This document shows, piece after piece, positions 38,109 to 59,151 of a stretch of 64,000 nucleotides of DNA. Origin of the DNA: Bradyrhizobium paxllaeri (lineage in GTDB: Bacteria > Pseudomonadota > Alphaproteobacteria > Rhizobiales > Xanthobacteraceae). The DNA is taken from contig NZ_CP042968.1 in the NCBI RefSeq assembly GCF_001693515.2, positions 5,890,001-5,954,000 of the forward strand. Reading direction: 5' to 3'. A program made the translations under genes and the position numbers. The notes below the pieces were generated by a model, which had not been told where the DNA came from, searched no databases, and worked only from the letters and a program-made list of their open reading frames with translations. Each line of letters starts with the position of its first letter. Position 1 is the stretch's first letter.

Positions 38109-38827
38109 TGGTGGCCGATCTGTTGCGAAAGAGCGGCCGCGACTTGGCAGTTGACTTGCGAAGCCCCCACTGTTTTGCGAGCGTTTGCGATAGCGATCGT
38201 TACCCGAAGGGCCGAGACACCCGTAGGGTGGCTCGGTGAGGAGCGAAGCGACGAGTAGAGCGCGGGCCGAAGGCATCGCCCGTATGCCATCAGCACGGCA
38301 TTGTCGCACTCCTCCACGAACTCTTGGCTGCGTGAGCGAGGGTTCCTTTAGTAGCAAACCCGAAAGTCTTAGCGTCATGATCGTGTTGCAGCGTTTCGAA
38401 TGCAAACCGAATGTCCGTCACGGGGCGCCAGCGAATCTGGAAACTGACGGCTGATATCACGAGCTGCCCGATGTGCAGCCGCCGGACGCTTACGGTTGAT
38501 CGGTTGATCTGCCCCTGCTCGTAATCACCACCGCTGAGATTGCGAAGAACTTCGACAGAAGGCGATTCAGCTCATTTGCTGCCGATGCGAGCAAGAGAAC
38601 TGCAAACACGAGCGCTACCACCACACATGAAGCGCAATCCCGACAGACGATGAGCGTGCCACCGTGCTCGCGACCGTCCAAGGTGAAGCTGCTTCGCGCC
38701 GGCCGTTCGGCCGTCCTGGACCGCCGCTGCGCGCGACGGCACGGCCAATTGTTGGTCGGGACGGAGGAATGGTCCCGCACTCGATCGAACAGAGGAATGG
38801 AGGATCGGAAGCGCCGATCAAGCACGG
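38109..38827. other. Non-coding interval with a candidate oriT hairpin
   Basis: About 700 bp without a supportable gene between the relaxase module and the peptidase gene, which normally lie close together. The most notable feature is the hairpin at 38212-38236. The remainder shows no family signature on either strand. Confidence 0.4.
38212..38236. other. Strong hairpin near the relaxase gene, candidate oriT element
   Basis: CCGAGACACCC (38212-38222) pairs with GGGTGGCTCGG (38226-38236), 10 of 11 positions, with a GTA loop. There is no T run, so a terminator is unlikely. Relaxase targets usually lie near such inverted repeats upstream of the relaxase gene. The nick site is not identifiable by eye. 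Confidence 0.35.
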
Positions 38828-42343: not shown

Positions 42344-43540
42344 TCAGATTGCGCGCTCCATCAAGCGCTTTGCTTTTCCTTCCAGTTCCAGACGCGCATC
42401 CTGATGAGCCTTACCGCGGGCAAACGCGGTAATGCCCTGCACGAAATCGAAGATGCTTTCGGGTTTGCGGTGTTCTTCGCCCAAGACGGTCTCGATGATT
42501 TTCGACGTCTCGGACTTGGAAAACCCGCTCTTGCGGAGGAAGGTCTCTCGGTCCTCGTCCGTGCGGGCAACAATCCGCTCCCGCGCGGCCTTGATCCCGG
42601 CAATGAAAGGGGCCGGTGACGAGTTGGCGAAGCTTGTCAGCGCGGGCGCTGCCTCATGCGCGAAGCGCTGACCTGCGAATTTCGAATGGCGGATTGTGAT
42701 TTCCTCGAAATTCTCCACGCCCCAGAGATTGCGGTTCATGCAGACGGCGCGGAGATAGAAGCTGGCAATGCCCAGCGTCTTGCTGCCGACTTCGCTGTTC
42801 CAGCAATAAAATCCCCGGAAATACAAATCCGGCGATCCATCCGACAGGCGCCCCGCCTCGATCGGGTTGGTGTCGTCGACCAGAAACAGAAACACGTCGC
42901 GATCGCTGGCGTAGAGCGTCGTGGTGTCCTTGGTCACGTCCACAAAGGGATTGTGGGTCATGGTCGCCCAGTCCATCACGCCTGGAACTTTCCACCGGGT
43001 GTCGCCCGTGCCGTTGCCCGCGATCTTCATGACGGCGGCGACTAGTTCGTGGTCCCAGATGCGGCCATAGTCCGGCCCGGTCACGGCGCGAAGTTCGACC
43101 CGTCCGTTATCGGCTTCCAGCGTCTTCACGAGCTCGGCGCGATGTGACAACAAGCCGTGTTGCAGGTTGATGGCCGATAGGGCTGCGGGAAGCTGCCGCA
43201 GATAGGATGTCGGCGCACCGACGAGCGTACACAATTGGCCGAAGCTCCAATGGGTCGGCGCCACCGGTTCGTCACGTCCCGGCACCATCAGCGCCAGCCG
43301 CTCGGAATTCTCCCGGTTCGCCTCCACCCGGATCGCCCGGCTTTCCACTGTTCGCGTCTGCGCCCGCTCGGCCCGGCCTCGCACCGCCTTATAGAGGTCC
43401 GGCAGGTTCAAATACCGCTCGTCGTCCGGCCGCGAGAACCATTCGGACGACACGCGGCTATTCCTTTGGCCTCGCGACACATCAACGCGAAAGCCGCCGG
43501 AATGTGGTTGATCGTTCTGAGGCTGAGTCATCATGTTCAT
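42344..43540 (-). CDS. DUF932 family protein
   Basis: A 398-residue DUF932 protein. The ATG at 43540 has AGGAG nine bases upstream. Family phrases are HWSFGQLCTLVGAPTSYLRQLPA, VTGPDYGRIWDHELV, LYASDRDVFLFLVDD, YFRGFYCWNSEVGSKTLGI and the tail SIFDFVQGITAFARG. DUF932 proteins are plasmid- and phage-borne and have been related to host takeover, but their activity is not settled. The leader contains a perfect hairpin 23 bp before the start, a position shared with other genes of this element. Confidence 0.9.
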   Translation of the reverse strand: MNMMTQPQNDQPHSGGFRVDVSRGQRNSRVSSEWFSRPDDERYLNLPDLYKAVRGRAERAQTRTVESRAIRVEANRENSERLALMVPGRDEPVAPTHWSFGQLCTLVGAPTSYLRQLPAALSAINLQHGLLSHRAELVKTLEADNGRVELRAVTGPDYGRIWDHELVAAVMKIAGNGTGDTRWKVPGVMDWATMTHNPFVDVTKDTTTLYASDRDVFLFLVDDTNPIEAGRLSDGSPDLYFRGFYCWNSEVGSKTLGIASFYLRAVCMNRNLWGVENFEEITIRHSKFAGQRFAHEAAPALTSFANSSPAPFIAGIKAARERIVARTDEDRETFLRKSGFSKSETSKIIETVLGEEHRKPESIFDFVQGITAFARGKAHQDARLELEGKAKRLMERAI

Positions 43541-43562
43541 GGTCGTTCTCCTATGGGCTGAG

Positions 43563-43588
43563 GTTGAAGCGCAGCGCTGCGCTGCAAC
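43563..43588 (-). promoter_or_regulatory. Palindrome in the DUF932 leader
   Basis: GTTGAAGCGCAGC (43563-43575) and GCTGCGCTGCAAC (43576-43588) form a near-perfect inverted repeat (12 of 13), starting 23 bp before the start codon. A second repeat, GCGCGC-GGAA-GCGCGC, lies at 43665-43680. Confidence 0.5.
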
Positions 43589-43854
43589 CCTGCCCGTCGG
43601 CGAGACCTGGGGTAGCAAGGGCAAGGGCGGCTGGACGCGGAGGGGGATCACCCGCCTGACAAGGGCGCGCGGAAGCGCGCGTCTGCACGCGCCTGACGAC
43701 GTCGTCGTCATGAAGATCCTTTGCGCGGAAGACCGGGGAAACCCGTCCGGCCGGCACGCATGGCGTGCTTCACCCTTGCCGGCGCGAGGGCGGAGCCCTT
43801 AGCAATCTCTTCAAAAAGAAAATGCTCTTCTTCCTGTAAAGCCGCGCAAGAAAA

Positions 43855-43885
43855 GCAAAAAGCCCCGCCTCCGAGGAGGCGGGGC
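43855..43885 (-). terminator. Intrinsic terminator of the DUF736 gene
   Basis: An 11-bp GC stem (43862-43872 and 43875-43885) followed on the minus strand by TTTTTGCTTTT. It lies 17 bp beyond the DUF736 stop and separates that transcript from DUF932. Confidence 0.85.
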
Positions 43886-43901
43886 CGATGGTCCTGGGAG
43901 A

Positions 43902-44213
43902 TCAGTCGCCGTTGCGGCGGGACCAGATCAGGGTGAAGCCCTCGTCGCCCTCGACCTTCACCAGCGAGGCGTAGATCGGGGCCGGGAAGCTCGGATCGTC
44001 GAGCTTGACCGAGAGGTATTCGCGATCGCTGTCGCGGGCGGTCTTCTTCCAGGCGGCGCCGAACTCAGTGACACCGGCGAAGATGCGGTAGTCGGGCGCC
44101 TTGTCGTTTTCCTTCTCGGTTGCGGCGAACCTGGTCTTGATGTTCAGCGTCAGCGTCTTGATCGAGCCGATGTAGCCGTTGTGCGAAGCGGTGAAGGTGC
44201 CGATGGTAGCCAT
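43902..44213 (-). CDS. DUF736 family protein
   Basis: A 103-residue protein of the DUF736 family, very common on Rhizobiales elements: [69 protein letters not shown] precedes the ATG. It is a small soluble beta-rich protein of unknown function and usually highly expressed. It has its own strong terminator and a structured leader similar to that of the DUF2493 gene. Confidence 0.93.
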
Positions 44214-44235
44214 GGTAGTCTCCGTTTGTTGCTCG

Positions 44236-44392
44236 GGCCGCGCCCATCGCGGCCTCGATGGCGATCCTTGGCCCGGGGAGCGATCGGCCCGCAGCCTTCA
44301 GGCCCGCAGCGCCAGCGGAGGACGGCGATAGCCTGCTTTTTTGTTTTCCCGCGACGAATGCCGCCCCTTCGCGGCAGGGGAAAAAAGCAGGC
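44236..44392 (-). promoter_or_regulatory. Structured leader of DUF736 (proximal hairpin plus distal nested stem)
   Basis: The proximal inverted repeat GGCCGCG (44236-44242)/CGCGGCC (44248-44254) starts 23 bp before the start codon. The distal repeat GCCTGCTTTTTT (44331-44342)/AAAAAAGCAGGC (44381-44392) starts 118 bp before it and encloses a smaller GCCGC/GCGGC hairpin. Both parts recur at nearly the same distances before the DUF2493 gene. Confidence 0.55.
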
Positions 44393-45057
44393 GCAGCCGT
44401 TGCGGGAAGGCGATCGAGGCCTTGGCCGTCCCTCGGGCCTGATCAGCCCATTCGAGGTTGCGTTGGACGCGAGCCATGAACGAACTGAACGGAGACAACC
44501 ATGGCGGCCGACACCGACGCAGCACAAGGAAACAGCTGGATCTATCGGACACATGCTGACGGCGGCGCGTCCACGGCAAGGAAGACGCATCCCGGCAAAC
44601 GCTAACGCCCCCTCATCGCATTCCCGCGTGCCGGGGGGAGCGGCCGGAGTGATCCGCCAGATAGTGATCACAATGCTCCAGTCAGCACGCGATCAAAGCG
44701 TCCGGCCTCTTCGCTTGCTGCTGATCGACGAGCACGACACCAACGTCCCTTGGTCCGCCGCAGATGGTGTAGATCAGAGTGATCGAGGTCTCGATCATGG
44801 TGGGTTTTCATGCGGCGATCGCCGCTGTGCGCGAAAAGAAGCGGCCGCGCGCCGGTCAGGCGCGGGGCCGAAATTTTGGAACTCGCCGGGGCCGCTCGCG
44901 CGGCCCCGGCTCGATCCTCACTCTGCGGCCTGCGAATAGTCGCCGCCGCCTTGCGGATCATCGAGCGCGAGGGGCGGCGCCCCTTGGTTCACTTCCGCAA
45001 GGATGCGAATTGTCGTGCCAATGCAAGCAAGACCACTAGGCGGAAGTTCGAACGACA
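44393..45057. other. Interval without a convincing gene
   Basis: GC-rich open frames exist on both strands, but none has a clear family signature. A 38-codon minus-strand frame (44798-44682, ITLIYTICGGPRDVGVVLVD) reads like protein and may be a small gene or fragment. Confidence 0.35.
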
Positions 45058-45303
45058 AAGGCAGCCGTAGGAGCGTCAGCATAGCGCCGCCACTTGGCGG
45101 GACGCGGGACCGACTGCAGTCGCGAGACCGGTTAAGAAGGCACCCGAACGCGGGACAGTGATAGCGACGCCGGCATGCAATGACGGCGGGGCACGCGAGC
45201 GAGTGCCTCCGGCGAGCGACACATTATTCGGGCGCGAGGGATCGAGCCGGATGGCCGGGACGCCATGCGGCTCGATTCACGAAAGCCCGCTGCGGCGACA
45301 GCC
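45058..45303. repeat. Dispersed repeat copy A (empty site of the group II intron)
   Basis: About 245 bp shared with copy B (53175-53375 joined to 55933-55980). It includes the palindrome CGACTGCAGTCG and, at 45241-45276, a hairpin: ATCGAGCCG/CGGCTCGAT closing a second stem ATGGC/GCCAT around the loop CGGGAC. In copy B the intron is inserted between ATGGC and the loop. The function of the repeat is unknown; it is likely a structured element. Confidence 0.8.
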
Positions 45304-45332
45304 GTACGCGCAAAAAAATATCTAAGTAAAAT

Positions 45333-45530
45333 TCAAGCCCGCGGAAGCTGGACGTCCTCTCTGGCTCTGGTCAAAGCGTCGTAGATCCTGACCTGAAGCA
45401 TGGGAAAGCGCTTTTTCAGCTCTTCCGCTCCGGCGCGCGCGCCGTCTCTGGTCGCAAATTCGGCCTTGAATCGGCCGTCAACTTCGAGCGCATAACCAGA
45501 AGCTGGCAGTTCACGAGTGGCTACGACCAT
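45333..45530 (-). CDS. Small hypothetical protein
   Basis: A 65-residue protein (MVVATRELPASGYALEVDGR, GARAGAEELKKRFPMLQVRIYDAL) with AAAGGAAC before its ATG. The pattern of a short beta hairpin followed by a helix and strand resembles small proteins seen in related elements, but I cannot name a family. It ends 30 bp before repeat copy A. Confidence 0.65.
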   Translation of the reverse strand: MVVATRELPASGYALEVDGRFKAEFATRDGARAGAEELKKRFPMLQVRIYDALTRAREDVQLPRA

Positions 45531-45661
45531 TTTGTTCCTTTGGCTCGTTGGTCGATCAATGACGACTGCTTAATCTGAGTCGCCCGGAGCAGGCCAGCGT
45601 GCGGCCACACTTGCGAAAGCGAAGATCCAACGCGAATCGCTGCCGGCATGCAGAATGTTGG

Positions 45662-46207
45662 TCACGGATGCGCATTCGAGCCATCCGAGCAGCTAGCCGG
45701 GCGACCGCCCAGCCGGATGCATGCGCGATAGAGCCAAGGTGCGACATAGCTGCCCGCCCATATCCCGCGTCCGGCGTGCTCGGCAGCGTGCTGCGCGGCA
45801 CCGTATTGCCCCCTCGAATATTGGGGCCAATCGAGCGCGAGGCCATTCCGAACCAGCCACTCTCCGAGGTCGATGCGACTGACGAAACATTTTGCCACCG
45901 TTCGTCCGTATTGATCATGGGAAACGGGCTCACAATTCACCGGTCGCCGCGCGATGAAGGCGTCAAGATCGCTCGCGGCCTTTGCACCACATCGATACAG
46001 ATTGCTGTCGGAACCGCGGCAGAGCTGAGTGCTTTCCGGCGCGTCGATTCCCCAGAGGCGAACGCGAGTACCGTGAATTTCCAGCGTGTCGCCGTCGAGG
46101 ATGCTGGCCCGCCCCGTCAATTCGCTGGGTAACGCGACCGCGCTTGAAGCGAGAACGATCAATGTCGCGAACAAACCAGTGCTTGCGCTCGTCCTAATGC
46201 CGATCAC
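45662..46207 (-). CDS. Thermonuclease-family (SNase-like) exported nuclease
   Basis: A 181-residue secreted nuclease of the staphylococcal-nuclease fold. The GTG at 46207 is chosen because GGGAG lies five bases upstream and gives a clean signal peptide (TGLFATLIVLASSAVALPSE). Active-site features are ILDGDTLEIHGTRVRLWGIDAPE (catalytic Arg in the RLWGIDAPE loop) and DQYGRTVAKCFV. Such genes are standard cargo of this element family. It probably degrades DNA or RNA in the periplasm; the biological role is unclear. Confidence 0.9.
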   Translation of the reverse strand: MIGIRTSASTGLFATLIVLASSAVALPSELTGRASILDGDTLEIHGTRVRLWGIDAPESTQLCRGSDSNLYRCGAKAASDLDAFIARRPVNCEPVSHDQYGRTVAKCFVSRIDLGEWLVRNGLALDWPQYSRGQYGAAQHAAEHAGRGIWAGSYVAPWLYRACIRLGGRPASCSDGSNAHP

Positions 46208-46338
46208 GCTCTCTCCCGGATACCAAGCTTCGCCGTCCGCAGCCATTGCGATGTTCGCATACCCGGTGCCACTCTCACGCCAGCGCCAAGAGGCAGGACA
46301 GAGCCGCGGCTGACGAGCCTCGGGCCAAGCAAGGCGCC

Positions 46339-47034
46339 CTATTGACCTTGGCGAGTTATGACCGGCTGCGGCGCACCCTGCCATTCAAGACGCCAAATGC
46401 CGCCTTGCCGCAGATTCTGGACAAGGTCGGGACGAAAGCAGGCGAGACAGGTGCCTCCAGCGTGGCGAACCGAGGGATAGATAATTCCGTTACTCGAATG
46501 ATCGATACGCAAGTGTCGAGCCAGGGTCTGGCCTGCAGGATAGGCAATTGCGGGGTCCTTATTCAGGACCGGGTCGAGTTCGACGTCTACGCCACGCAAA
46601 TCGTGAAACGAGCCGAAAAAATCGGCAATGAGTTCGGCGTAGTCGGTGACATTTTCGAAGCGCCCAACGGCCTCAAGCTCGCGCGTCAGGTGATAGGAGA
46701 CCTCGCCAATCGCAGTATCGGCATCGAAGGCGCAATACCAGGCACCTCGGTCGTCGTCATTGAAACGATTGCCACCTGGGCGCGTATGCGTGAATGCAGC
46801 GTTGATGAACGTAAATCCGGCCCGGCCAAACACGAGTTCGCGCGGATCGAGCTGCGGAAGCCCTGTCTCCTGCGCGACCAAGCGGCCGTTTGTAGCACTC
46901 TCGAGCGCTGCCAGATCTTCAAGCGCACCGTGATTGGCAGCAAGCGGAAGCAACACCGGGTCTTTGAGCCGACCGGTTGAGATCAGCCGCACGGTGTCGC
47001 GCTGTGTCAGGTTGAACGTTGGTAGCTGGGACAT
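46339..47034 (-). CDS. RES-domain toxin
   Basis: A 231-residue RES domain protein. The domain has THTRPGGNRFNDDDRGAWYCAFDADTAIGEV in parts, with the conserved Arg, Tyr and Glu, and the late SNGIIYPSVRHAGGTCLACF. RES toxins such as MbcT, Res and ParT degrade or modify NAD+ or its targets. The start codon follows the antitoxin stop with no gap, so the pair is translationally coupled. It is intact and therefore probably kept in check by the partner. Confidence 0.92.
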   Translation of the reverse strand: MSQLPTFNLTQRDTVRLISTGRLKDPVLLPLAANHGALEDLAALESATNGRLVAQETGLPQLDPRELVFGRAGFTFINAAFTHTRPGGNRFNDDDRGAWYCAFDADTAIGEVSYHLTRELEAVGRFENVTDYAELIADFFGSFHDLRGVDVELDPVLNKDPAIAYPAGQTLARHLRIDHSSNGIIYPSVRHAGGTCLACFRPDLVQNLRQGGIWRLEWQGAPQPVITRQGQ

Positions 47035-47478
47035 TCATAACCCGCCACGCAGTGCGTCAATATGTCGACGCACTTCCAGCATCTTCGGAATGCCGCCTTC
47101 TATCATCGTATCAAGTGGACGTCGGCCGCCATAGAGCGGTCCCTTGTTGGGTAGCCGCACCCATTCGTCCGACAACGGCTCGGAAAATAGCAAACGGAGG
47201 CCTTTGAAGATGCCGACAAGTGCACTGATCCTGGTCAGCGTGTCCTGCGATAGCGTGCCAGACCACTCACCTTTTTTCATGCGGAACCAAGTTCGTTCCG
47301 ACACGTCGCCGAGCAGCGCGCAGACCTCGGGCCCTGTTAGACGCCAGATTTCGGTCAGACGAACCATGCCGTCGACCGCAGACGGCGTCAGTCGTTCACG
47401 TGTGGAAGCATCCGAGAGATTCGGCGCTGATTGCGTCATCCCTGGGTCTATCACCGATCTAATAGCTGCCTGATTCAT
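47035..47478 (-). CDS. Xre/MbcA/ParS-type antitoxin
   Basis: A 147-residue antitoxin with an Xre-like helix-turn-helix (MVRLTEIWRLTGPEVCALLGDVSERTWFRMKKGEW) and the C-terminal toxin-binding domain of the DUF2384 group (LSQDTLTRISALVGIFKGLRLLFSE, ending GGIPKMLEVRRHIDALRGG). The ATG at 47478 has GGAAG upstream. It lies directly before the RES toxin. Inverted half sites at 47496-47525 just upstream are the likely operator for autorepression. Confidence 0.9.
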   Translation of the reverse strand: MNQAAIRSVIDPGMTQSAPNLSDASTRERLTPSAVDGMVRLTEIWRLTGPEVCALLGDVSERTWFRMKKGEWSGTLSQDTLTRISALVGIFKGLRLLFSEPLSDEWVRLPNKGPLYGGRRPLDTMIEGGIPKMLEVRRHIDALRGGL

Positions 47479-47495
47479 CGGAACGCTTCCGTCAT

Positions 47496-47525
47496 TTGGC
47501 AGACAATATACTGCCAATTGGCAGT
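47496..47525. promoter_or_regulatory. Operator-like repeats of the RES/Xre pair
   Basis: A perfect 16-bp palindrome, ACTGCCAATTGGCAGT at 47510-47525, plus a third half site TTGGCAG at 47496-47502 that forms a second inverted repeat with CTGCCAA at 47511-47517. It lies 18 bp before the antitoxin start. Confidence 0.65.
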
Positions 47526-47639
47526 TATTTCAAGCTTGGGCCTCCAGATTAGTAAGCCACTGATAAGAAAGAGGATTATCTGGCTCAGCGTCAGACAGTT
47601 TCGGGGTAGCCAGGGCTCAAAGGCTAACGGCAACACACG

Positions 47640-47833
47640 CTAAGATTGAATATTACCTGATGCACGCTCTTCTGGCGGCCGGCACCAACTGGGGCCTTTT
47701 CCGATTCGATACGCGTAGATCCCGGTGGTCATGCAGACAAAGAACGGCAACGCATAGATTGCCAGTGCAAACAGTGCCCACAGACGGCACCGAACCCGGC
47801 GATATTGAGACGAATACCAATGATGATGATCAT
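47640..47833 (-). pseudogene. Relic of a small element-encoded membrane protein
   Basis: From the ATG at 47833 the frame reads MIIIIGIRLNIAGFGAVC; after a shift the next frame reads ALFALAIYALPFFVCMTTGIYAYRIG and then diverges to a stop at 47640. Proteins with the phrase FALAIYALPFFVGMTAGIYAY occur in related elements. The second half, normally a Gly-rich membrane helix, is gone. The rest of 47526-48011 shows nothing. Confidence 0.45.
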
Positions 47834-48011
47834 GGTGATGGTCCCGTGACAGATATCTCGCGGGTTACGCCACCACCACGGCGCGCCCAGTATGGCCGCG
47901 CCGTCGGGGTGACGAGAGTAGCGATTTGCCGACAGCGCAGATTCGCTGCGTTGAATTTTCGCTGCGCATCTGGCCCGGGCGGAAATGTACCTTTGTCGGG
48001 AATGGCGGCGC

Positions 48012-48950
48012 TCACGCGCCGCCATTCCCGAACTTCCAGACAGGGATGCCGAGCTTACGCGCCTTGTCGGCGAGATTGTCCTGGATACCGGTACCAGGGA
48101 ATACCATGACCCCAACGGGCAAGACGTCGAGCATCTGATCGTTACGCTTGAAGGGCGCGGCCTTGGCGTGTCGGGTCCAGTCCGGCTTGAAAGCGATCTG
48201 TGTTACCTTGCGGTGATCTGCCCATCGGGCAGCGATGCGCTCGGCCCCCGTTGGCGAGCCGCCGTGCAGGAGGACCATGTCAGGATATTTGGCACGGACC
48301 TTGTCGAGAGTGTTCCAGATCAGGCGATGATCGTTGCAATCGAGTCCTCCGGTAAAGGCGATCTTCGTGCCTGCGGGCGTCAGCGGCTCGAGCGCAATGC
48401 GACGCTTGGCGGCGAGAAAGTCGCGGCTATCAATCATAGCCGAGGTCAGCGTGCCGTGACTTATCAAAGATCCCGAGCGTGGTCGCCAGGCTGATCCGGT
48501 GTGGCGTTCGAATTGCCCGGCGGCCTCATCGCGGAAGAACTCTATGGCGTTGCGACGTTCGATCAGAGTCATGCCCTCTGCGATCAGGCGTTCCAACTCG
48601 ACCGAGCGGATTTCCGAACCGTCCTGATCCTTCTGGCTCCGCTTCTGCGCTATTTCATTGCCATCGAGCTCGCGTTCGATCCGCTCAGTGGCGCGGTGGA
48701 AGATATTCACGCTCGACCACAGGAGGTTTTCGAGATCGGGTTCGAGGCGGGTCTCTCCGAGTGTCGCGATCAGGGCGTCGAAGATATCGGCGACGGCGTT
48801 GGCAATGGTGCGCGCCTCCGGCAGCGGTCTCGGATCGGCTTCGTCCTGGAAGGGGCGATAGCCATGAAGCTGGAGTTCGGTGAGAACGTGATCGGTCGGG
48901 GATGTTGTGAGCGCAGGATCGTAGTCCTGTTCGTCGCGATTGGTCGTCAT
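48012..48950 (-). CDS. DUF2493 (SLOG superfamily) protein
   Basis: A 312-residue protein. The N-terminal two thirds are helical and charged; the C-terminal domain is the DUF2493/YpsA-like SLOG fold with TKIAFTGGLDCNDHRLIWNTLDKV, VLLHGGSPTGAERIAARWA and PVGVMVFPGTGIQDNLADKA. SLOG domains bind nucleotide derivatives; the role in these elements is unknown. The start is set at 48950 (MTTNRDEQDY). Its leader shares a two-part structure with the DUF736 gene. Confidence 0.9.
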   Translation of the reverse strand: MTTNRDEQDYDPALTTSPTDHVLTELQLHGYRPFQDEADPRPLPEARTIANAVADIFDALIATLGETRLEPDLENLLWSSVNIFHRATERIERELDGNEIAQKRSQKDQDGSEIRSVELERLIAEGMTLIERRNAIEFFRDEAAGQFERHTGSAWRPRSGSLISHGTLTSAMIDSRDFLAAKRRIALEPLTPAGTKIAFTGGLDCNDHRLIWNTLDKVRAKYPDMVLLHGGSPTGAERIAARWADHRKVTQIAFKPDWTRHAKAAPFKRNDQMLDVLPVGVMVFPGTGIQDNLADKARKLGIPVWKFGNGGA

Positions 48951-48971
48951 GGCGTGTTCCTTTGTCGGATC

Positions 48972-49145
48972 GGCCGCGACCATCGCGGCCTTCGTGGCGA
49001 CGAAAGGCGGCGGGCGGACCGGACCTGCACCGCTGAGCTGGGCGAAGCGGCCGAAGCGGAGCGAAGGATGGTGGCGGCCGGCTATTTTGTATCGCGATGT
49101 AAAGCGTCAGTAAGGACGCGACGGAAAATAGCCGGCCGCCACCAT
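48972..49145 (-). promoter_or_regulatory. Structured leader of DUF2493 (proximal hairpin plus distal 21-bp inverted repeat)
   Basis: The proximal repeat GGCCGCG (48972-48978)/CGCGGCC (48984-48990) starts 22 bp before the start codon. A perfect 21-bp inverted repeat (49068-49088 and 49125-49145) starts 118 bp before it and encloses a GCGTC/GACGC hairpin. The same layout precedes DUF736. Confidence 0.6.
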
Positions 49146-49283
49146 TGCGTGGCCGGTTCGCTTGCCGCAGGGTCGCCCTCTCAGAAGGCCAGGGCTGCGG
49201 CCTCTCCGACACACTCGGCGAAACGCTCGCGGGCCCGGTCGAGCGAACCCGGAAAGCGACGCGCACCTTTCTCTGGCGGCGTC

Positions 49284-50324
49284 TCACCGCTTCACGAAGC
49301 GCGCCACATCTTCCGGAGCAAGTTGCAGCCGCAGGGACTCCCGAAGCGCATCCTTGCCAAATTTCCGGAGATCCTCGTTGAAGTCCTCGCAGCGCGGCGA
49401 CAGAGGTATCGCTTCGATCCCGTTCGTGCGAGCACGTGCGGCCAATCTTTCCAGCGCTCCATCCCCGGCAGAATCGCGGTCGCGAACGATGTAAAGACGG
49501 CGCAGACCCACGGCGAAAAGGATGGCTGCCAGATGAGCCGCCGACAGTGCGGCGACCATCGGCATGGCCGGCAAGATGCAACGGAGCGACAATATGGTTT
49601 CGATCCCCTCCCCAGCCGCCATGACGTCATCCGCGATACCGAAGCGGACGGCGTGACCAAGAAGATGGCCCATCGCGCGTCGTGGTGAGTCGATCGGCGC
49701 TTTGCCGTTGGCCGAACGGTCGAACCCTTCAGGATTGAGGTAGGTGCGATGCACGCCGGTGATCCGACCGTCGAGATCGGTCACCGCCGCGATCATCGCG
49801 GGGTAGGTCTCGGACGGTTCAGAAGGGCGCGGACGATAGTAGCAGCGCGGATTGAATCGAAGGCTTTCGTTGCCGGGAAGGACAGTGATGCCGCGGGCAT
49901 GCAGATAAGTCTCTACTATCGTGCCCTTGATCGGATGCGAGATCGCGAATAGCCGCCGTGCCGATTCCGGCGAGCCGGTTGCTGACGCACGTGGCTGGCG
50001 CTTCGAATCCGGCTCAGGTCGCGGAAGCCTGAGGAACCGTCGTGCTTCGGCTGCGACCTCGCGGAAATCGACGAGGCCGCAACTTTCTCGAATGATGTCG
50101 AGCAAATCGCCATGCTCGCCGGTGGCAGCATCGGTCCATTTGCCGACGACGCGTTTACCGGACACGCCTGACAGGCGTACGAACATCGACCGACCGGCCG
50201 TGTTCCTGACATCACCAACCTGCCAGTAGCTTCCTACCCGTCGCCCATTGGAAAGATAGTGACGGCACACCGCCTCGGCCTCGCGCGCCAGACGATCTGC
50301 CAGCTCCGTTGCATCGCACGGCAT
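49284..50324 (-). CDS. Toprim-domain primase-like protein
   Basis: A 346-residue protein. The N-terminal half (about 1-110) resembles the zinc-ribbon-lacking primase-associated domain (DUF7146), with VGSYWQVGDVRNTAGRSMFVRL and GEHGDLLDIIRE. The C-terminal toprim domain has VMAAGEGIETILSL and LYIVRDRDSAGDGALERLAARA, supplying the Glu and Asp-x-Asp metal ligands. It probably has a role in element DNA priming. It starts 1 bp after the truncated parB stop, in the usual order. Confidence 0.9.
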   Translation of the reverse strand: MPCDATELADRLAREAEAVCRHYLSNGRRVGSYWQVGDVRNTAGRSMFVRLSGVSGKRVVGKWTDAATGEHGDLLDIIRESCGLVDFREVAAEARRFLRLPRPEPDSKRQPRASATGSPESARRLFAISHPIKGTIVETYLHARGITVLPGNESLRFNPRCYYRPRPSEPSETYPAMIAAVTDLDGRITGVHRTYLNPEGFDRSANGKAPIDSPRRAMGHLLGHAVRFGIADDVMAAGEGIETILSLRCILPAMPMVAALSAAHLAAILFAVGLRRLYIVRDRDSAGDGALERLAARARTNGIEAIPLSPRCEDFNEDLRKFGKDALRESLRLQLAPEDVARFVKR

Positions 50325-50325
50325 C

Positions 50326-50847
50326 TTACACCCCCGTGCGATCGGAGATATGTGAGAGCGGATAGCGCGCCAGGCGCAGGCGCTGCTTGACGATTGCCGG
50401 CGTCACGAAATGTCGGGCGGCAATCTCCTCTTCGCTCATGCCGCCATCACGGCGGGTCTGGAACGCGCGGAACTGGTCGAGCGGATGTAGGCCGATACGC
50501 TGGTCCTTTTCGGCGAGGGAGCCATCCTCGGCAACGCCGTCATTCCTGACCACGCAGGGCCCCGGTTGGGTCTTCGCCATCCGCTTCTGCTTCACCAGGA
50601 ATTCTAGAGCACGGTACCGCCGACCTCCAGCGGGCACTTCGAACATGCCGGTTCGCAGACCATCGGTATCGACGACAGCGCGAACACTGAGGCTTTGCAA
50701 TAAGGTGCGGTTCGCGATGCCCTTGGCCAGTTGCGCAATCGAGATGCCGGCCTCGACGCGGCGGACGTTGGAATGGCTCAACACCGGCTTGTTGAAGGGA
50801 ATATCACGGGACGGACTGAGCTTGATCTTCTGAACGGCGCTTGCCAT
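50326..50847 (-). pseudogene. ParB N-terminal domain gene, 3' truncated
   Basis: A 173-codon frame from the ATG at 50847 with the ParB/RepB nuclease-like domain: IPFNKPVLSHSNVRRVEAGISI, TGMFEVPAGGRRYRALEFLV and HPLDQFRAFQTRRDGGMSEEEIAARHFVTPAIVKQRL in parts. In intact elements the protein continues for several hundred residues after KQRLRLA. Here it stops after RYPLSHISDRTGV and the toprim gene follows at once, so the remainder has been deleted. A partly functional DNA-binding fragment is possible. Confidence 0.7.
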
Positions 50848-51320
50848 CTCGAATTCTCCGCAGCGGGCGGCCGAGAGCCTCTCTCTCGACCTCCAACCCG
50901 CCGCGAAATTCGACTGCCCTCCTCTCACTCTCTGACGCGCCGCGGCCACAGGAGGCCGAAGCATTCGACGGATCCTCAGGCAGCGGCTTCCTCACCATCG
51001 GGAGCGGAGTCGATCCTATGAGGCCAGGAATCGGCCACTCTGGATGCAGCGCATGCCGCCCTCACGACCGCGCGGTTGCCCTTGCGCGGTCTCTTGAGCC
51101 ACAAGCCGGTGTAGTCGGCGTGTCGTACGGTCGGCGCGATTCCAAACGAGGTGCAACGAACGCGGCGCTACTTTCCGTGATTTGACTCGAAGGTGGCCGG
51201 CCGACACCTGAACGAAGTCGCTGGCCGCATTAGGTATGCATACTGCACACGCGGAAGCGAGCGCCGACGGAACAATCTGGTCGGGCAGCAGTGAAGCACT
51301 TGAAGCAGCGAGATCAGCTT
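50848..51320. other. Interval between parB and hipA without a gene
   Basis: I see no supportable gene. A hairpin CGAGAG/CTCTCG (50872-50877 and 50883-50888) starts 25 bp before the parB start, echoing the proximal hairpins of the other element genes. Confidence 0.4.
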
Positions 51321-52601
51321 TTAATCGATCAGCTTCGTCAAGGCTTCCGGTGCTTCCAGGAAGGCGTACGGGTTCAAGAACTGTCGGCGCCAGAGGAAGT
51401 TCCGATCTACTTTGCTGAGCTTTGCCTCGTCGCATACGGCGGACCAGCGCTGCACGATCATCTTGACTTGTTTGGTTGCAAGTAGGATTGCCTCAGCATT
51501 GCTCATCAGAAACAGCGGCGCCGCTTTCAGCCACAGCGCGATTTGGCTCGCACGCTCTTGGCCCATGATCAGCATAGCTTGGGTGGCTTCGCCACCTGTC
51601 CGATTTTGCGGACAGATGTCATATGCGGGGGTCAGAGACAGTTCCTTGCCATTCCAGAAAGCCGCGTGATTGCGCGCATGGTCATCGGTATTTCCACAGA
51701 GAATGTTGAACAGCATTCGTGCGAAGAGTTCTTTGAGGGTCTCCCTCGGCGCCTGAAATCGGTGACGAATGACCGTCGCGAGTTGCTCATAGCTGGCATA
51801 GCGCGCCATGAGTTCATCGAGCTCAAGCAGCGTGAGGGCGGACACCATGGATTTACGGCTCCAGCCGTCTTCCATTTTCAGGCGATCAAAGCGTTCAATA
51901 AGAAGGATGTCCCTTCCCGCCGCACGCTCAAGTCTAACCGGCGCCGCAGTCAGGCCGACTTCAGAGGCGAGACGCATGGCGATGTATTCGGCCTTGACCA
52001 CGCTATAGAGATCGTTCTGCGATGAGAACTTCGCAATAAATTTCCGGTTGCCCGACGTAATCATCGCCTTGGGGCGGGCACCTCCGATCGAGCTACCATG
52101 GAGAAGGGCTCGGTCGAGTTCTTCCGTGAGCGGAACTCCCTTTTCGACCAGCGCAGCGGCATTCTGGAGTTCGTGGAGAGGGACCTCAACTCCTTCCCGA
52201 GCCGCGTACGCCGCAGAAGATACCTGAAAATCCAAAGCGCCGATGCGGTCTGAGCCGGATTCCAGCAGAAAGGTGAGCTCATCGACATTGCCCGGATCGA
52301 CATTGTTGCCTTGCGCTCCGAATTTTCGATTAATAATGATCCGGCGCCCCCAAGCGTCAGGAGCCGCATCGCGAATACAGTTCGGCATGCTCAACCCTGC
52401 CGTCAGCGACAAGATTCCGCTCCGCAGTGGCAATTCTGGTTCATAGAGCGGGATAGCGTTCTTGCGCGCGAGGTAGCTTCGCCCGTAGTTGAATACGAGT
52501 CGCCTGCCGCTCGCCGATAGAAGGCCGGCGACGACAGGCTCTGTTTGATCAGGAAGCCATACCCAGACAAAGGCCTGGGTGTATTTGGCGTCAGAAATCA
52601 T
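51321..52601 (-). CDS. HipA-like serine/threonine kinase toxin
   Basis: A 426-residue HipA-family kinase. The N-terminal Couple_hipA domain covers about residues 5-110 (LLSASGRRLVFNYGRSYLA, LPDAWGRR-like APDAWGRRII). Kinase motifs are SSIGGARPKAMI, the ATP lysine in NRKFIAKF, the catalytic LCGNTDDHARNHAAFW and metal-binding AYDICPQNRTGG. HipA kinases phosphorylate tRNA synthetases or similar targets and cause dormancy. The start at 52601 overlaps the hipB-like gene by 11 bp. It appears intact. Confidence 0.92.
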   Translation of the reverse strand: MISDAKYTQAFVWVWLPDQTEPVVAGLLSASGRRLVFNYGRSYLARKNAIPLYEPELPLRSGILSLTAGLSMPNCIRDAAPDAWGRRIIINRKFGAQGNNVDPGNVDELTFLLESGSDRIGALDFQVSSAAYAAREGVEVPLHELQNAAALVEKGVPLTEELDRALLHGSSIGGARPKAMITSGNRKFIAKFSSQNDLYSVVKAEYIAMRLASEVGLTAAPVRLERAAGRDILLIERFDRLKMEDGWSRKSMVSALTLLELDELMARYASYEQLATVIRHRFQAPRETLKELFARMLFNILCGNTDDHARNHAAFWNGKELSLTPAYDICPQNRTGGEATQAMLIMGQERASQIALWLKAAPLFLMSNAEAILLATKQVKMIVQRWSAVCDEAKLSKVDRNFLWRRQFLNPYAFLEAPEALTKLID

Positions 52602-52926
52602 CGGCGACCTCGACACGTGAACTGCGAACCGATTTCGGCAGCAGCGTCATCAGTTCGCGATTGGTTTCGACGGCCTTGGTCAATGCCGCCTGATCCGTAT
52701 CGAATAGTCGCACACCGACAAGTGCCGCGACCTCGAAGGCCACACCGATCGTGCATCCGGGATCGCCCGTCTCGATGCGTCGCAGAAGACCGCGCGAAAT
52801 CCCTACCCGGTCGGTCACATCGACGGCCTTAAGCTTGCGTTCGATACGCGCCTTGCGAATGAGTTGGCCAAGAAGAACCACGGCGTCGGCGGCGTAGGGA
52901 GAAATAGGGCGCTGGATTTTCGACAT
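52591..52926 (-). CDS. HipB-like antitoxin
   Basis: A 111-residue helix-turn-helix protein with LIRKARIERKLKAVDVTDRVGISRGLLRRIETGDPG, a Cro/C1-type domain, followed by a C-terminus suited to hold the HipA partner. It overlaps the kinase gene, the usual hipBA arrangement. A palindrome at 52949-52964 lies 22 bp upstream and is probably its operator. Confidence 0.9.
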   Translation of the reverse strand: MSKIQRPISPYAADAVVLLGQLIRKARIERKLKAVDVTDRVGISRGLLRRIETGDPGCTIGVAFEVAALVGVRLFDTDQAALTKAVETNRELMTLLPKSVRSSRVEVADDF

Positions 52927-52964: not shown

Positions 52965-53174
52965 ACTTATTTATAGATCATTCCTAGGGAATGTCAAGAA
53001 ACTGTCCATAAACGTTCCATATAATGGTATATGCTCTAATAATGGACCAAAAACGTCCAAGACAAGCATGATCGGGTCCCAAAAGCGCAAACCTGTCACG
53101 ATAGCCGCTCATCGTATGAAGCCTTGGCGCCCGTGACCTGCGAGAACGCCGTAGCGAAGCGCCGGCCGGAGAAA

Positions 53175-53375
53175 GAGGCAGCCGCAGGAGCGTCAGCATC
53201 GCGCCGACGCGGGAACGCGGCGGGACGCGGGACCGACTGCAGTCGCGAGACCGGTTAACAAGGCACCCGCAGAGGGGCAGTGATAGCGACGCCGGAATGA
53301 AATGACGGCGGGCACCGAAGGCGAGTGCCTCCGGCGAGCGACTCATGATTGCGCGAGGGATCGAAGCCGGATGGC
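53175..53375. repeat. Dispersed repeat copy B, 5' part
   Basis: This segment matches repeat copy A (45058-45255) base for base apart from scattered changes and small indels, then stops abruptly at ATGGC where the group II intron begins with GTGCG. The missing 3' part resumes at 55933. Confidence 0.8.
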
Positions 53376-55932
53376 GTGCGCCGTTGAGGCGTGGAGAAGA
53401 AGGGAGTGTTCGAAAGAATGGAGCCTGCTGGTTATGGCTCTTACTTGCCCGGCTTACCGGTGTCGGAAACGACTGAGACTCCGAAAGGAGAACGGGACCA
53501 AAGCATGCCGGGAAACGTCTCGAAATCGGGCGCCGCAGTCCGGTGGAGAGCACAGAGTAAGGTGTGCATGGTGAAAGCTGTATTGCCTGAATCCCAGTTT
53601 CCAGTTGCCAAAGGGCTGGCCGTAGCGAACGCGGCTGACACGCTATGCCACGCGGGGCAGATCGCACCGGCCAGTGCGATCTGCCACCAGTCTGCGTGGG
53701 ACGACCACCATCCGTGGGTCAAGGAGACGAATGGGACACCTAAACACACCGCAACTTCCTACACACGCAACTACGGGATCGCCTGCAGCAGGCTCTTTCA
53801 AAGACCTGTATGGCGACGGAGCCGTCATAGTACCCAAATGCCCGGCGTAATGGCCAGGACAGCCACCGCGAGGTGGACGATCATGCGTATAAGGCCGGGT
53901 GACCGGACCGAAAGCGCCTCCGATCGGGGGAAGGACGATGCCGCTAATAACGGTATTTGCAGTATGCGTAGAAGAGATTCTTCGACGGAGAGGTTCTGCT
54001 GATGCAGGCCGCTACCATCCAGAGAAGAATTGAATCACTGCCGACTTTGTCGCGGTCGGGTAAGCGCGTAAATGGCCTTCACCGCTTGATGAGATCTCCG
54101 CATCTCTTCGAGTGGGCCTACGAAAAGGTCTCCCGCAACAAGGGAGCCCTGACGCCCGGTGTAGATGGCAAGACCTTCGACGGCATGTCGCTGGCGAAGC
54201 TCGCTGACATCGCCAGGCGCGTAGCCGATGGCACTTATCGCTTCCGGCCAGTCCGGCGGGTCTATATCCCAAAGGACAACGGCAAAACACGACCGCTGGG
54301 TATCCCAACGGTGGAAGACCGGCTCGTGCAGGAGGCGGTCAGGATTCTGCTCGAAGCGATCTACGAACCCGTGTTCCTCGATGAGTCGCATGGGTTCCGC
54401 CCGAGACGATCCTGTCATACCGCACTCAAGTCCATCAAGAAGACCTGGACGGGCTGCAAGTGGCTGGTCGAAGTGGATGTGCGTGGGTTCTTCGACAACA
54501 TCGACCATGACATTCTGCTTGGGCTTCTGAAGAAGCGGATCGATGACGATAGGTTCATCGCTCTGATCGAAGGAATGCTCAAAGCAGGTTACATGGAAGA
54601 TTGGGTCTACGGACGCACTTACAGTGGCACGCCACAGGGCGGTGTTGTCTCGCCCCTGCTCGCCAACATCTATCTGCACGAGCTGGACCAGCACATGCAG
54701 ACGATGAAGACGGGCTTCGACAAAGGCCGCGACCGACGTCCATTCCCGCGCTATGCGGCGCTGGAACGGCGCGTCCTCAGTCTCCGCCGGAAAATTGAAC
54801 GGCTCCGCGCCAGCGGCGCGGATCGGGCCGAGATCGACGCGGCACTCGCGGAGATCAAAGCCATTAATAAGGAGAGACGGAAAGTGCCCTCCGTCGATCC
54901 GATGGACCCCAACTTCAAAAGGCTCCGCTACTGCCGCTACGCTGACGACTTCCTCATCGGCGTAATCGGGAACATGCGAGAAGCGTGTGAGATCATGGCT
55001 TGCGTCGAACAATTCCTGACGCAGAGATTGAAGCTCACCGTGTCGCCCGAGAAAAGCGGGGTCTATGCCGCTTCAAAGGGAGTGACCTTCCTCAGTTATC
55101 GCATCTCGACATACACATCCTACGGGGCTGGACGCAAATCCAACCGCACGGGACCGGATGGACGGACATGGCGCGTGGTACGCCGGCCGACCACCGGGAA
55201 TGTCAGCTTGCGAGTGCCGCGGAAGGAGGTTACCGCGTTCTGCAAGCGACACGGCTATGGCGATCTCGCCAGAAAAACTGGCCGTCCTCGCGAGCAGTTC
55301 TTGGTCACCAGCGATGTCGCAACCGTCCTCGCCTATAACTCAGAGTTCCGTGGTTTTGCGAACTACCATTCGTTTGCTGATGACTTCAAGAGCGCCTTGG
55401 GACTGTTGGAGCTTGTTGTGTTCCGCAGCCTTGTGAAGACGCTGGCGATGCGACATCGGACGACGAGAGCGAGAACCATGGCACGTCTGTGGAATGGTAC
55501 GGACTACGAGGTCAAATCCGTGGTCCGTGGAAAGCTTCGTAGCATCAAGCTGTGGAGACTGAAGCATCTGACCCAAACCTACTGGACGAGTCCTGTGGTC
55601 GACAACGTCACGGCAGGTGCGTGGTGGGTCAAAAGCCCAAATGATCTGATCGATCGCCTCAACGCTCGCAGATGCGAAGCGTGCGGCGAGACGAAAGGGC
55701 CATTTGAGATGCATCACCTCCGCCGCATAGGAGACCTGCGAAGCGGATCGCTGACGGTTTGGAAACGGTCCGGTTGGCGGCGCAAGACCATCGTCCTGTG
55801 TCCGTCATGCCGTGTAACCGTGTCCGGTCGAGAGCATGCGCGTATGGAAAGCCGTGTGCATTGAAAAGTGCCCGTACGGTTTGGGGGGAGGCGTAGGGAT
55901 ATCCTCTGCGAGGTGTCCCGCGCCTACCCTAC
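53376..55932 (+). mobile_element. Group II intron with encoded reverse transcriptase
   Basis: The 5' end is GTGCG, the consensus group II start, and the 3' end is CTAC. Both are fixed by comparison with the uninterrupted repeat at 45255/45256. The length is 2557 nt. Domain V is at about 55848-55882 (AAAGCCGTGTGC, TTGAAAAGTG, CCCGTACGGTTT), followed by a domain VI hairpin. The protein gene lies at 54002-55864. It appears complete and may be able to splice and move. Confidence 0.88.
54002..55864 (+). CDS. Group II intron reverse transcriptase/maturase
   Basis: A 620-residue intron-encoded protein. Reverse-transcriptase blocks include VYIPKDNGKTRPLGIPTVEDR, LVEVDVRGFFDNIDHD (first catalytic Asp), TYSGTPQGGVVSPLLANIYL and the catalytic YADDF. 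A maturase X domain follows (about 400-540), then a C-terminal HNH-like zinc motif (RRCEACGETKG, EMHHLRRI, LCPSCRVTV). The last His usually seen after the second Cys pair is Arg here, so endonuclease activity may be reduced. Its TGA lies inside domain V. It drives splicing and retrohoming. Confidence 0.93.
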   Translation: MQAATIQRRIESLPTLSRSGKRVNGLHRLMRSPHLFEWAYEKVSRNKGALTPGVDGKTFDGMSLAKLADIARRVADGTYRFRPVRRVYIPKDNGKTRPLGIPTVEDRLVQEAVRILLEAIYEPVFLDESHGFRPRRSCHTALKSIKKTWTGCKWLVEVDVRGFFDNIDHDILLGLLKKRIDDDRFIALIEGMLKAGYMEDWVYGRTYSGTPQGGVVSPLLANIYLHELDQHMQTMKTGFDKGRDRRPFPRYAALERRVLSLRRKIERLRASGADRAEIDAALAEIKAINKERRKVPSVDPMDPNFKRLRYCRYADDFLIGVIGNMREACEIMACVEQFLTQRLKLTVSPEKSGVYAASKGVTFLSYRISTYTSYGAGRKSNRTGPDGRTWRVVRRPTTGNVSLRVPRKEVTAFCKRHGYGDLARKTGRPREQFLVTSDVATVLAYNSEFRGFANYHSFADDFKSALGLLELVVFRSLVKTLAMRHRTTRARTMARLWNGTDYEVKSVVRGKLRSIKLWRLKHLTQTYWTSPVVDNVTAGAWWVKSPNDLIDRLNARRCEACGETKGPFEMHHLRRIGDLRSGSLTVWKRSGWRRKTIVLCPSCRVTVSGREHARMESRVH

Positions 55933-55980
55933 CGAGACGCCTTGCGGCTCGGTGTACGAGAGCCCGGTCCGCGACCAGCG
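55933..55980. repeat. Dispersed repeat copy B, 3' part
   Basis: CGAGACGCCTTGCGGCTCGG and the following bases match 45256-45303 of copy A. This proves that the intron was inserted into an existing repeat. Confidence 0.75.
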
Positions 55981-56305
55981 GGCGCGCCCAACGCCGACGG
56001 TCGGCACCCCATCGCTTCAATGCGCTATTGAGAATATGGGTCGCGAACAAGCCGGAATCGCAAGCCCGTATGTACAACCATCACAAATGAAGCACGTCTT
56101 TGACCGCGAAGCGTGCGTCCGATTGCCACCAAGCGCATGCCACGGTTCCGCGTCTTTCTTAACCAGTTGCAAACAGCGGCATCCGCGGTATCGGCGACCC
56201 GTTGCGAGGCATGCCATTCCGACAAAGCGAAGACTTATCGCGGTTTCAATGGAAGAGCGGCGACTTATTTGTCGGATTGAGCACTGATCCCCCAGTGGAA
56301 TCCCA
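55981..56305. other. Interval up to the attachment site
   Basis: No gene is supported here. The stretch is unremarkable up to the tRNA fragment. Confidence 0.35.
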
Positions 56306-56353
56306 TGACTCTTAATCAGCGGGTCCCAGGTTCGAGCCCTGGTGCGCCCACCA
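56306..56353 (+). other. 3' fragment of tRNA-Lys(CTT), likely attachment site
   Basis: TGACTCTTAATCA gives the anticodon loop with CTT; GGTTCGAGCCC is the T arm and the fragment ends CGCCCACCA. The 5' half of a tRNA is absent, and the anticodon stem stops pairing after three base pairs. A 48-nt tRNA 3' end alone is the classic duplicated att core left at the far end of an integrated element. For a plus-strand tRNA the element lies to the left, consistent with the ICE remnant. Confidence 0.75.
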
Positions 56354-58297: not shown

Positions 58298-59080
58298 CTA
58301 TTTTCCCGTCCATGACGGCTTGCGCTTTTCGCCAAAAGCCTTGAGGCCTTCCTTGGCGTCTTCCGTCATCGCCAGCAGCGCAATCTGGCTCTCGGTGTGG
58401 GCGATGCTCTCGTCGAACGACATCGAGGCGATCGCGCGCATGGCATATTTGCCGCGGCGGATTGCGGTCGGCGACTTGTCGACGATACGGCTGACCAGCC
58501 ATTCGACCTTGGCGTCGAGTTCGGCCGCCGGCACGACGTAGTTCAGGAGGCCGGCCTCCTTGGCGATGCTGGCGTCAAACGGCTCACCGGTTAGCGCCCA
58601 CTCGCTGACCAGCCGCTTCGGCGCGATCGATTGCAACAGGCTCAGCACCTGCATCGGGAACACGCCGACCTTCACCTCGGGCAAACCGAAAATCACATGG
58701 TCGGCGGCGACGGCCATGTCGGTCATGCACAACAGCCCCATACCGCCGGCCATGCAGACGCCGCCCACACGGGCGATCGCGGGCTTGGTGGCATTTTGCG
58801 ACAGCCGCAAGAGATCGGCGTAGTCGACATTCGGCCTGGAAAAATCCATCGCGAAGGCGGCGCCGCTGTTCTGCAGGTCGGCGCCGGCGCAGAACGCCTT
58901 GTCGCCAGCCCCCGTCAGCACGATGACGCGGACGTCCTTGTCGTCATGGGCTTCGCGATAGCCGCGGGCGATGCCGGCGACGACATCGGCATTGATGGCG
59001 TTGCGCTTGTCCGGCCGGTTGATGGTAATCCAGAACGCCTGCCCGCGCTTTTCGCGTATCACGCTGCTTGTATCGGTCAT
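58298..59080 (-). CDS. Enoyl-CoA hydratase/isomerase family protein
   Basis: A 260-residue crotonase-fold enzyme starting at MTDTSSVIREK. Oxyanion-hole segments are DKAFCAGADLQ and GVCMAGGMGLLCMTDMAVAA; the second carries Met in place of one of the usual glycines' neighbours. The catalytic Glu is in FGLPEVKVGVFP. It hydrates or isomerises a CoA thioester. It is the last gene of a minus-strand cluster and lies 71 bp beyond the oxidoreductase stop. Confidence 0.92.
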   Translation of the reverse strand: MTDTSSVIREKRGQAFWITINRPDKRNAINADVVAGIARGYREAHDDKDVRVIVLTGAGDKAFCAGADLQNSGAAFAMDFSRPNVDYADLLRLSQNATKPAIARVGGVCMAGGMGLLCMTDMAVAADHVIFGLPEVKVGVFPMQVLSLLQSIAPKRLVSEWALTGEPFDASIAKEAGLLNYVVPAAELDAKVEWLVSRIVDKSPTAIRRGKYAMRAIASMSFDESIAHTESQIALLAMTEDAKEGLKAFGEKRKPSWTGK

Positions 59081-59151
59081 AGTCCTGCTCGCTTTTTTGT
59101 CAAATGCTGACAAGCATTTGCGGCAGGACGACGGTGGACTGCAAGGGCGTT

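Follow-up and report, generated by a model that had tools for sequence, protein, structure and literature searches.

Within a 64,000-nucleotide stretch of the Bradyrhizobium paxllaeri genome (contig NZ_CP042968.1, positions 5,890,001 to 5,954,000; hereafter the window, numbered from its first letter), a group II intron interrupts one of two copies of a repeated, structured element. Copy A is uninterrupted, and copy B, 8 kb away, carries the intron. We aligned copy A (45054-45312) with a composite of the sequences on either side of the insert in copy B (53100-53375 plus 55933-56100); a single unbroken alignment ran over the junction and placed the breakpoints at 53375/53376 and 55932/55933. The initial annotation had proposed a base-exact split of the second copy by a 2557-nt intron and had named such an alignment as its refutation test; the break lies where it was claimed, and the duplicated structured target with its empty copy also holds. 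The extent of the repeat had to be corrected, from 245 bp at 45058-45303 to about 258 bp at 45054-45312. The host genome, 8.38 Mb in one contig, holds a third copy (copy C, G000:C1:1381822-1382022), which is broken at the identical base by an intron 86% identical to that of the window; because this is a second insertion at the same base in one genome, the insertion in the window is not a matter of chance. Local alignment showed that the similarity among the three copies ends at the repeat borders. The features are collected in Table 1, in which M1, M2 and M3 are the modules of the element and R2 is a covariance model of M3, both described below.

Table 1. Features of the window around the interrupted element.
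Feature	Position	Strand	Basis or remark
Relaxase (DUF3363; Relaxase domain under cut-off)	36130..37884	-	Pfam
Third, diverged M3 of the window	38186..38263	+	R2, 28.2 bits, E 0.0008
Genes of leading-region kind, all those with a Pfam match on the minus strand	42344..52926	-	Pfam, names in relatives
Copy A, Frpo-like element, uninterrupted	45054..45312	+	M1 and M2 about 45059-45227, M3 45231-45311
Copy B, 5' part (M1, M2 and start of M3)	53171..53375	+	alignment
Intron-binding site 1 (IBS1), GATGGC	53370..53375	+	loop and 3' strand of the small M3 helix
Group II intron, 2557 nt	53376..55932	+	alignment, Rfam, intron-split copies
Candidate exon-binding site 1 (EBS1), GCCGTC	53821..53826	+	present in 21 of 21 aligned intron copies
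Intron-encoded protein, reverse transcriptase-maturase-HNH, 620 aa	54002..55864	+	Pfam, PDB match
Intron domains V-VI	55847..55932	+	Rfam RF00029 (Intron_gpII), 54.1 bits
Copy B, 3' part (remainder of M3)	55933..55987	+	alignment, R2

The insert begins with GTGCG and ends with CTAC, and the RF00029 match over its domains V and VI is the sole gathering-level Rfam match in the window. The intron-encoded protein contains RVT_1, Intron_maturas2 and AI2M-like HNH domains; its best PDB match by sequence is LtrA (376 bits), and its TIGR04416 score of 298.9 is marginally below the cut-off of 300. The RF00029 match and the reverse transcriptase/maturase protein thus confirm a full-length group II intron with these ends and a domain V, as initially annotated; the intron can presumably splice and move. 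All six positions of the candidate EBS1 can pair with IBS1, one of them as G-U. The introns at five related loci (L076, L077, L186, L188 and L191) start with GCGCG rather than GTGCG; these are perhaps splicing-defective or have a variant 5' end.

An alignment of 39 uninterrupted copies (A1) resolved the element into three modules, of which M1 and M2 are similarly built long hairpins and M3 is a branched structure. RNAalifold predicted 50 pairs for A1, 14 of them with changes on both sides, and M1 and M2 appeared by eye to have been exchanged between copies. For M3 we used a wide set, a 39-row alignment (A5) fitted to the model, in which one row (L066:1268) extends into an intron end. In this set 96.5% of the cells pair and 21 of 26 pairs show both-side changes; the covariation is 0.442; shuffled alignments give 0.142 (standard deviation 0.009), and slid partners do not exceed 0.065. 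In the structure backed by the wide set, two helices meet at the insertion point, and IBS1 belongs to the small helix just 5' of it. Of the 7 pairs in the helix on the 3' side of the site, 1 has a both-side change among 37 copies, and 6 have one in the wide set. Because the small helix is nearly invariant in both sets, covariation neither supports nor opposes it.

The insertion had initially been placed at the edge of a 6-nt loop in a hairpin of copy A. Copy A alone does fold into this hairpin, and its RNA fold is better than that of shuffled sequences (z -3.97), but the hairpin does not stand as a conserved structure, as none of its nine pairs shows a both-side change in 37 copies and the site is a helix boundary in the conserved fold. 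Rfam gave no match for copy A at E up to 5, and none for 20 loci at E up to 0.01 except one group II intron in L039; a relation to sRNA-Xcc1, which we had considered, was dropped on these searches. The L039 hit (5853-6067, minus strand; RF02005, 56.4 bits) is a match to a different group II intron, located about 1.6 kb from the Frpo-like element on a Bradyrhizobium plasmid. In five Bradyrhizobium-type loci (L021, L031, L038, L066 and L077), an insert of about 390 bp, always in one orientation, separates M2 from M3; it has a very short lysine-rich reading frame (MAKKAKKAKKTAKAA...KKKK) together with a hairpin resembling a terminator. Locus L031 (1021-2044) has two Frpo-like elements in series, separated by about 130 nt; the first is empty, and the lysine-rich insert lies in the second.

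The use of the same site was not limited to one genome. When the first 300 nt of the intron were searched against 142 genomes of the same genus, 22 genomes matched and 34 places were listed, of which 30 were examined. The 5' end of the intron was retained at 29 of these, and 26 had at least 230 nt of readable 5' exon; the others were one place lacking the intron 5' end and three ending at a contig border. The 5' exon was M3, interrupted at the same place, in 26 of 26 (25 by profile, L188 by eye). These correspond to 24 distinct places, as L205 and L206 repeat L192 and L193, and several are 5' fragments of the intron of 29-125 nt. A search with the intron protein, which partly covered the same species, gave 21 Bradyrhizobium loci among the 80 kept, and here the visible 5' exon was M3 in 14 of 14, a count that includes L053, the exon of which matches the M3 beside the relaxase in the window. 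The initial annotation had made retrohoming depend on recognition of the site; its repeated use shows that it is recognised, and the target houses an entire intron lineage rather than marking a single event.

Related introns outside Bradyrhizobium, at most 52% identical among the loci of the protein search, were located elsewhere. We submitted 6 of their 11 located 5' junctions to Pfam, and the 5' exon frames contained an ArdC N domain in two, only a zincin domain (which ArdC also carries) in one, an alpha/beta hydrolase in one and no Pfam family in two. A tree of 22 intron proteins served only as background, as the frameshifted L058 took an absurd branch. In two genomes just the first 44-57 nt of the intron are left in M3 (L027, 1446-1704; L030, 1496-1751); both remnants are soon followed by an enoyl-CoA hydratase gene, and the window has one at 58298-59113.

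The initial annotation had treated the repeat as an element of unknown function; rather, it has a relative in the F plasmid, the Frpo region of single-strand promoters. We built one covariance model from 37 Bradyrhizobium-type M3 copies (R1) and another from 39 matches of R1, some of them outside the order (R2); R2 contains no F sequence. The M3 of copy A scores 87.4 bits with R1, which has it among its rows, and 72.7 bits with R2. As a control expected to be empty, 23.5 kb of the leading side of F were fetched, and in them R2 found exactly two places at E up to 10, with 66.7 and 54.4 bits. The former is 470 nt 5' of ssb and the latter is 5' of the gene at 64032, which by its position we take as ygeA. 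R1, with its Bradyrhizobium-type rows only, found the identical two places (52.4 and 40.4 bits). Comparing 2.1-2.2 kb around each, we found that both share one 541-nt block at 90% identity, which spans from just past M3 to about 20 nt before the gene, and M3 is therefore the gene-distal end of a block duplicated in F. According to passages of PMC9849209, Frpo2 precedes ssb and Frpo1 precedes ygeA, the two being 92% identical and separated by about 5 kb; both are described there as single-strand DNA promoters, and fusions behind them are reported to lose their early rise when the elements are missing. BLAST of the F block against the loci of this study picked out M3 in many of them (81% over 63 nt in L010). 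By these sequence comparisons, M3 is homologous to the F elements at the Frpo2 and Frpo1 positions, as matched by neighbouring genes.

How widely the repeat and M3 are spread was then estimated with queries of different reach. Copy A matched in 108 of 146 genomes of the same genus (E up to 0.001), at most 8 times in any one of them. Among 72,556 plasmid records 69 matched, mostly over a short part, and all their hosts were Rhizobium, Mesorhizobium, Bradyrhizobium, Agrobacterium, Neorhizobium or Ensifer. R1 found M3 in 44 of 297 genomes of the order, belonging to 35 of 122 genera (E up to 1e-4 per genome); R2 found it in 14 of 289 genomes sampled from the class and in 16 of 299 sampled from the phylum, 6 of the 16 lying outside the class. 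BLAST with one rhizobial M3 matched 16 plasmids, including those of Pseudomonas, Xanthomonas, Stenotrophomonas and Citrobacter as well as pSB102, and gave no match among phages. As judged from these searches, M3 is the most widely conserved module and is found in sampled genomes throughout Pseudomonadota. Four genomes from outside the class (G874, G749, G819 and G911, among L256-L274) have 2-6 M3 matches each, some a few kb apart and one 5' of an SSB (single-stranded DNA-binding protein) gene. On a Mesorhizobium symbiosis plasmid (L041, about 3980-4260), two M1-like modules and a degenerate M3 were seen by eye between nodA and nodS.

To describe the gene context, we set the element pointing right, called genes with a simple purpose-made gene caller and counted related loci apart. 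The nearest gene on the left (5') side lay on the opposite, minus strand at 63 of 77 loci (30 of 32 in the first set) and at 24 of 35 loci of the class and phylum set, and strands on the right were mixed (17 plus, 13 minus and 2 without a gene in the first set). Pfam assigned the left genes of Bradyrhizobium-type loci to ArdC (14 of 37) and ParB HTH (10 of 37), those of a second scanned set to ArdC (7 of 29) and ArdA (4 of 29), and those of the class and phylum set to ArdC (9 of 35), DUF736 (4), ArdA (3), ParB_N (2) and SSB (1). The 37 were scanned out of 48 Bradyrhizobium-type left genes; those left out were the near-duplicates L017 and L019, the short L043 and the plus-strand calls L028, L030, L045, L049, L050, L055, L056 and L059.

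The association was also tested in reverse. ArdC is present in 87 of the 297 genomes of the order, and around 30 ardC loci chosen by ArdC score R1 found M3 in 9, always on the 5' side and on the opposite strand (six E values below 1e-4, then 0.0086, 0.012 and 0.13); one extra match with E 0.71 was regarded as chance. These results are quoted from R1 because the R2 matches L223 and L232 had themselves supplied rows of R2, and none of the matches is in R1. Passages of PMC7213743 state that ArdC is required in the recipient.

In the window, the genes of leading-region kind are DUF736, SNase, RES with an Xre-type neighbour, YAcAr (DUF2493 in relatives), DUF7146-toprim, HipA and helix-turn-helix (HTH), together with a weak ParB-like match. 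The HTH-HipA pair starts 245 nt from copy B, and the DUF736 gene starts 841 nt from copy A. The third M3 lies 302 nt 5' of the relaxase gene and is antisense to it; its counterpart in B. centrolobii has the intron, as seen by comparing the exons of L052 and L053, and the gene adjoining L053 is a DUF3363 relaxase. A similar set, running in one direction from a thermonuclease and ArdC to a DUF3363 relaxase, is found on plasmid pCW1_1. According to passages of PMC11541004, the relaxase end is typically transferred last; if so, the plus strand of the window would be the transferred strand and would fold as in F, an assignment in keeping with F and with how the relaxase and leading genes are ordered. 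On the other side of copy B, about 48 nt (56306-56353) recur at 80-100% identity, often at multiple sites, in 18 of 21 related genomes and are possibly a tRNA end or an attachment site; ARAGORN found zero tRNAs in the window, which rejects a tRNA-bounded island.

One interpretation accounts best for these observations, namely a leading-region intron lineage specialised on M3 of alphaproteobacterial Frpo/ssi-type elements (ssi, single-strand initiation), to which we give a probability of roughly 0.8. It rests on the homology of M3, the site specificity, the usual orientation and the EBS1-IBS1 complementarity, each established by comparison of sequences. The repeat would be the alphaproteobacterial form of the Frpo/ssi region, lying 5' of early-entering genes of conjugative elements and, by homology with F, acting when the transferred strand is single-stranded; the alphaproteobacterial copies may likewise have promoter activity. 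An intron lineage of conjugative leading regions would have become fixed on M3 in Bradyrhizobium because M3 is conserved, occurs several times in a genome and is replenished by conjugation. The RNA of the intron would use EBS1 to pair with the small M3 helix on the plus strand and reverse-splice where the two helices meet, and the reverse transcriptase/HNH protein would then complete retrohoming. If the plus strand is the transferred strand, it would present the site in single-stranded form at each conjugation, and the entering single strand is thus the presumed target of the intron. Because M3 is the far end of the element, the insertion would spare the gene-proximal modules and the gene.

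Other explanations account for parts of the data. M3 may be mainly an ssi site for priming the second strand of the transferred DNA, with the intron drawn by the same conservation; the title of the Frpo paper covers transcription and primer RNA synthesis alike, and the region has a toprim gene, but most copies lie 5' of genes in a fixed orientation, which is more than priming needs, and we regard a chiefly priming role as unlikely, if still worth serious attention. The many-copy pattern might instead reflect the inheritance of intron-bearing elements inside integrative and conjugative elements (ICEs), with no active homing. The intron-bearing copies B and C are alike at 242 of 260 ungapped positions, closer to each other than either is to the empty copy A, as inheritance would have it; near-identical introns nevertheless stand behind different 5' exons within one genome (at least three in B. 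centrolobii, L053, L055 and L056; two in B. neotropicale, L049 and L050; two in G096, L183 and L209), making inheritance by itself improbable.

The strong covariation, the conserved unpaired bases and the better-than-shuffled RNA fold of copy A would also suit a structured RNA, either a plus-strand non-coding RNA or a minus-strand leader of the adjoining gene, from which the intron is spliced out or in which it is tolerated, and the wobble-pair strand test is compatible with it. We nonetheless consider an RNA function quite improbable: no Rfam family matches, no T-run was seen by eye at the element end, the F homologues are described in passages of PMC9849209 as single-strand DNA promoters, and the intron would be antisense to a minus-strand leader transcript. 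In view of its usual orientation, its gene association and its homology to F, it seems very improbable that the element is a common rhizobial intergenic mosaic repeat of the RIME kind which lies near leading genes incidentally, even though modules appear by eye to be swapped between copies and pieces resembling them are present on plasmids of Rhizobium and Mesorhizobium.

Several points weigh against an intron lineage specialised on M3 of Frpo/ssi-type elements. IBS1 is variable among copies, and the form CAAGGC pairs less well with EBS1; the candidate EBS2, CGGCTT at about 53450, is complementary to AAGCCG but is uncertain, being distant from EBS1 and CGACTT in some copies. The strand test by wobble asymmetry is weak, with 22 versus 13 events in A1 (p 0.18) and 17 versus 9 in A5, an alignment that leans to the model. 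The left gene is on the other strand at 14 of the 77 loci and 11 of the 35 in class and phylum, and R1 at E up to 1 found no M3 on the 5' side in the other 21 of 30 ardC loci. BLAST with rhizobial M3 against 20,395 Escherichia coli records gave no match, so the link to F rests on the covariance models and the BLAST of the F block; the F elements are matched by neighbouring genes, and the homology, as read from sequence, covers M3 only. Exact -35/-10 strings were absent from the two copies tested, although this crude test likewise returns no TATAAT for F. For three E. coli records whose M3 match is truncated (from 60 evenly spread among 5363), the annotation shows no reverse transcriptase within about 3 kb.

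Compared with known systems, the element resembles Frpo1/Frpo2 of F (the ssi sites of IncI plasmids) in its homologous distal M3, its place 5' of leading-region genes and the strand that folds relative to the gene. It differs in that the gene-proximal part in Bradyrhizobium consists of M1 and M2, no -35/-10 boxes were found as exact strings, the host class is another and some copies have an intron. The intron shares the 5' GTGCG, domains V-VI, a reverse transcriptase-maturase-HNH protein and EBS1/IBS1 with HNH group II introns such as that of LtrA; unlike them, it targets a structured, non-coding and multi-copy module found in conjugative elements. RmInt1 resides in the insertion sequence ISRm2011-2 and is not known to have an endonuclease domain; like it, the window intron is a rhizobial intron housed in a multi-copy mobile sequence, but it has an HNH domain and targets a Frpo-like element. 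Class C introns lie behind terminators or in attC sites, and their proteins are not known to have an HNH or endonuclease domain. They likewise recognise a site with a stem-loop, but the HNH domain of the window protein sets it apart from class C. Passages of PMC10104558 describe a new junction, putatively that of a group II intron, which was seen in the leading region of an E. coli IncI plasmid during an evolution experiment; its likeness to the present case is that a group II intron would lie in the leading DNA of a plasmid. Among the open-licence PMC papers listed, it alone mentions Frpo together with a group II intron, and by title none came closer.

More tentatively, and with somewhat less than even confidence, we propose that the intron lineage may be specialised on the single-strand phase of conjugation, its RNA recognising a conserved fold of the entering strand and inserting before or while that strand is made double, and that M3 may represent a family of control elements for early entry which spans Pseudomonadota, including both F and rhizobial ICEs, and is matched by no family of Rfam 15. 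If this is true, the intron would gain fresh targets whenever any of the conjugative elements in the genus is transferred. As the target of this retroelement works, by homology, on single-stranded DNA, the connection between conjugation and retrohoming becomes testable. The covariance model marks leading-region control elements over Pseudomonadota, far past F-type sequences, and thereby points to the anti-defence genes that adjoin them.

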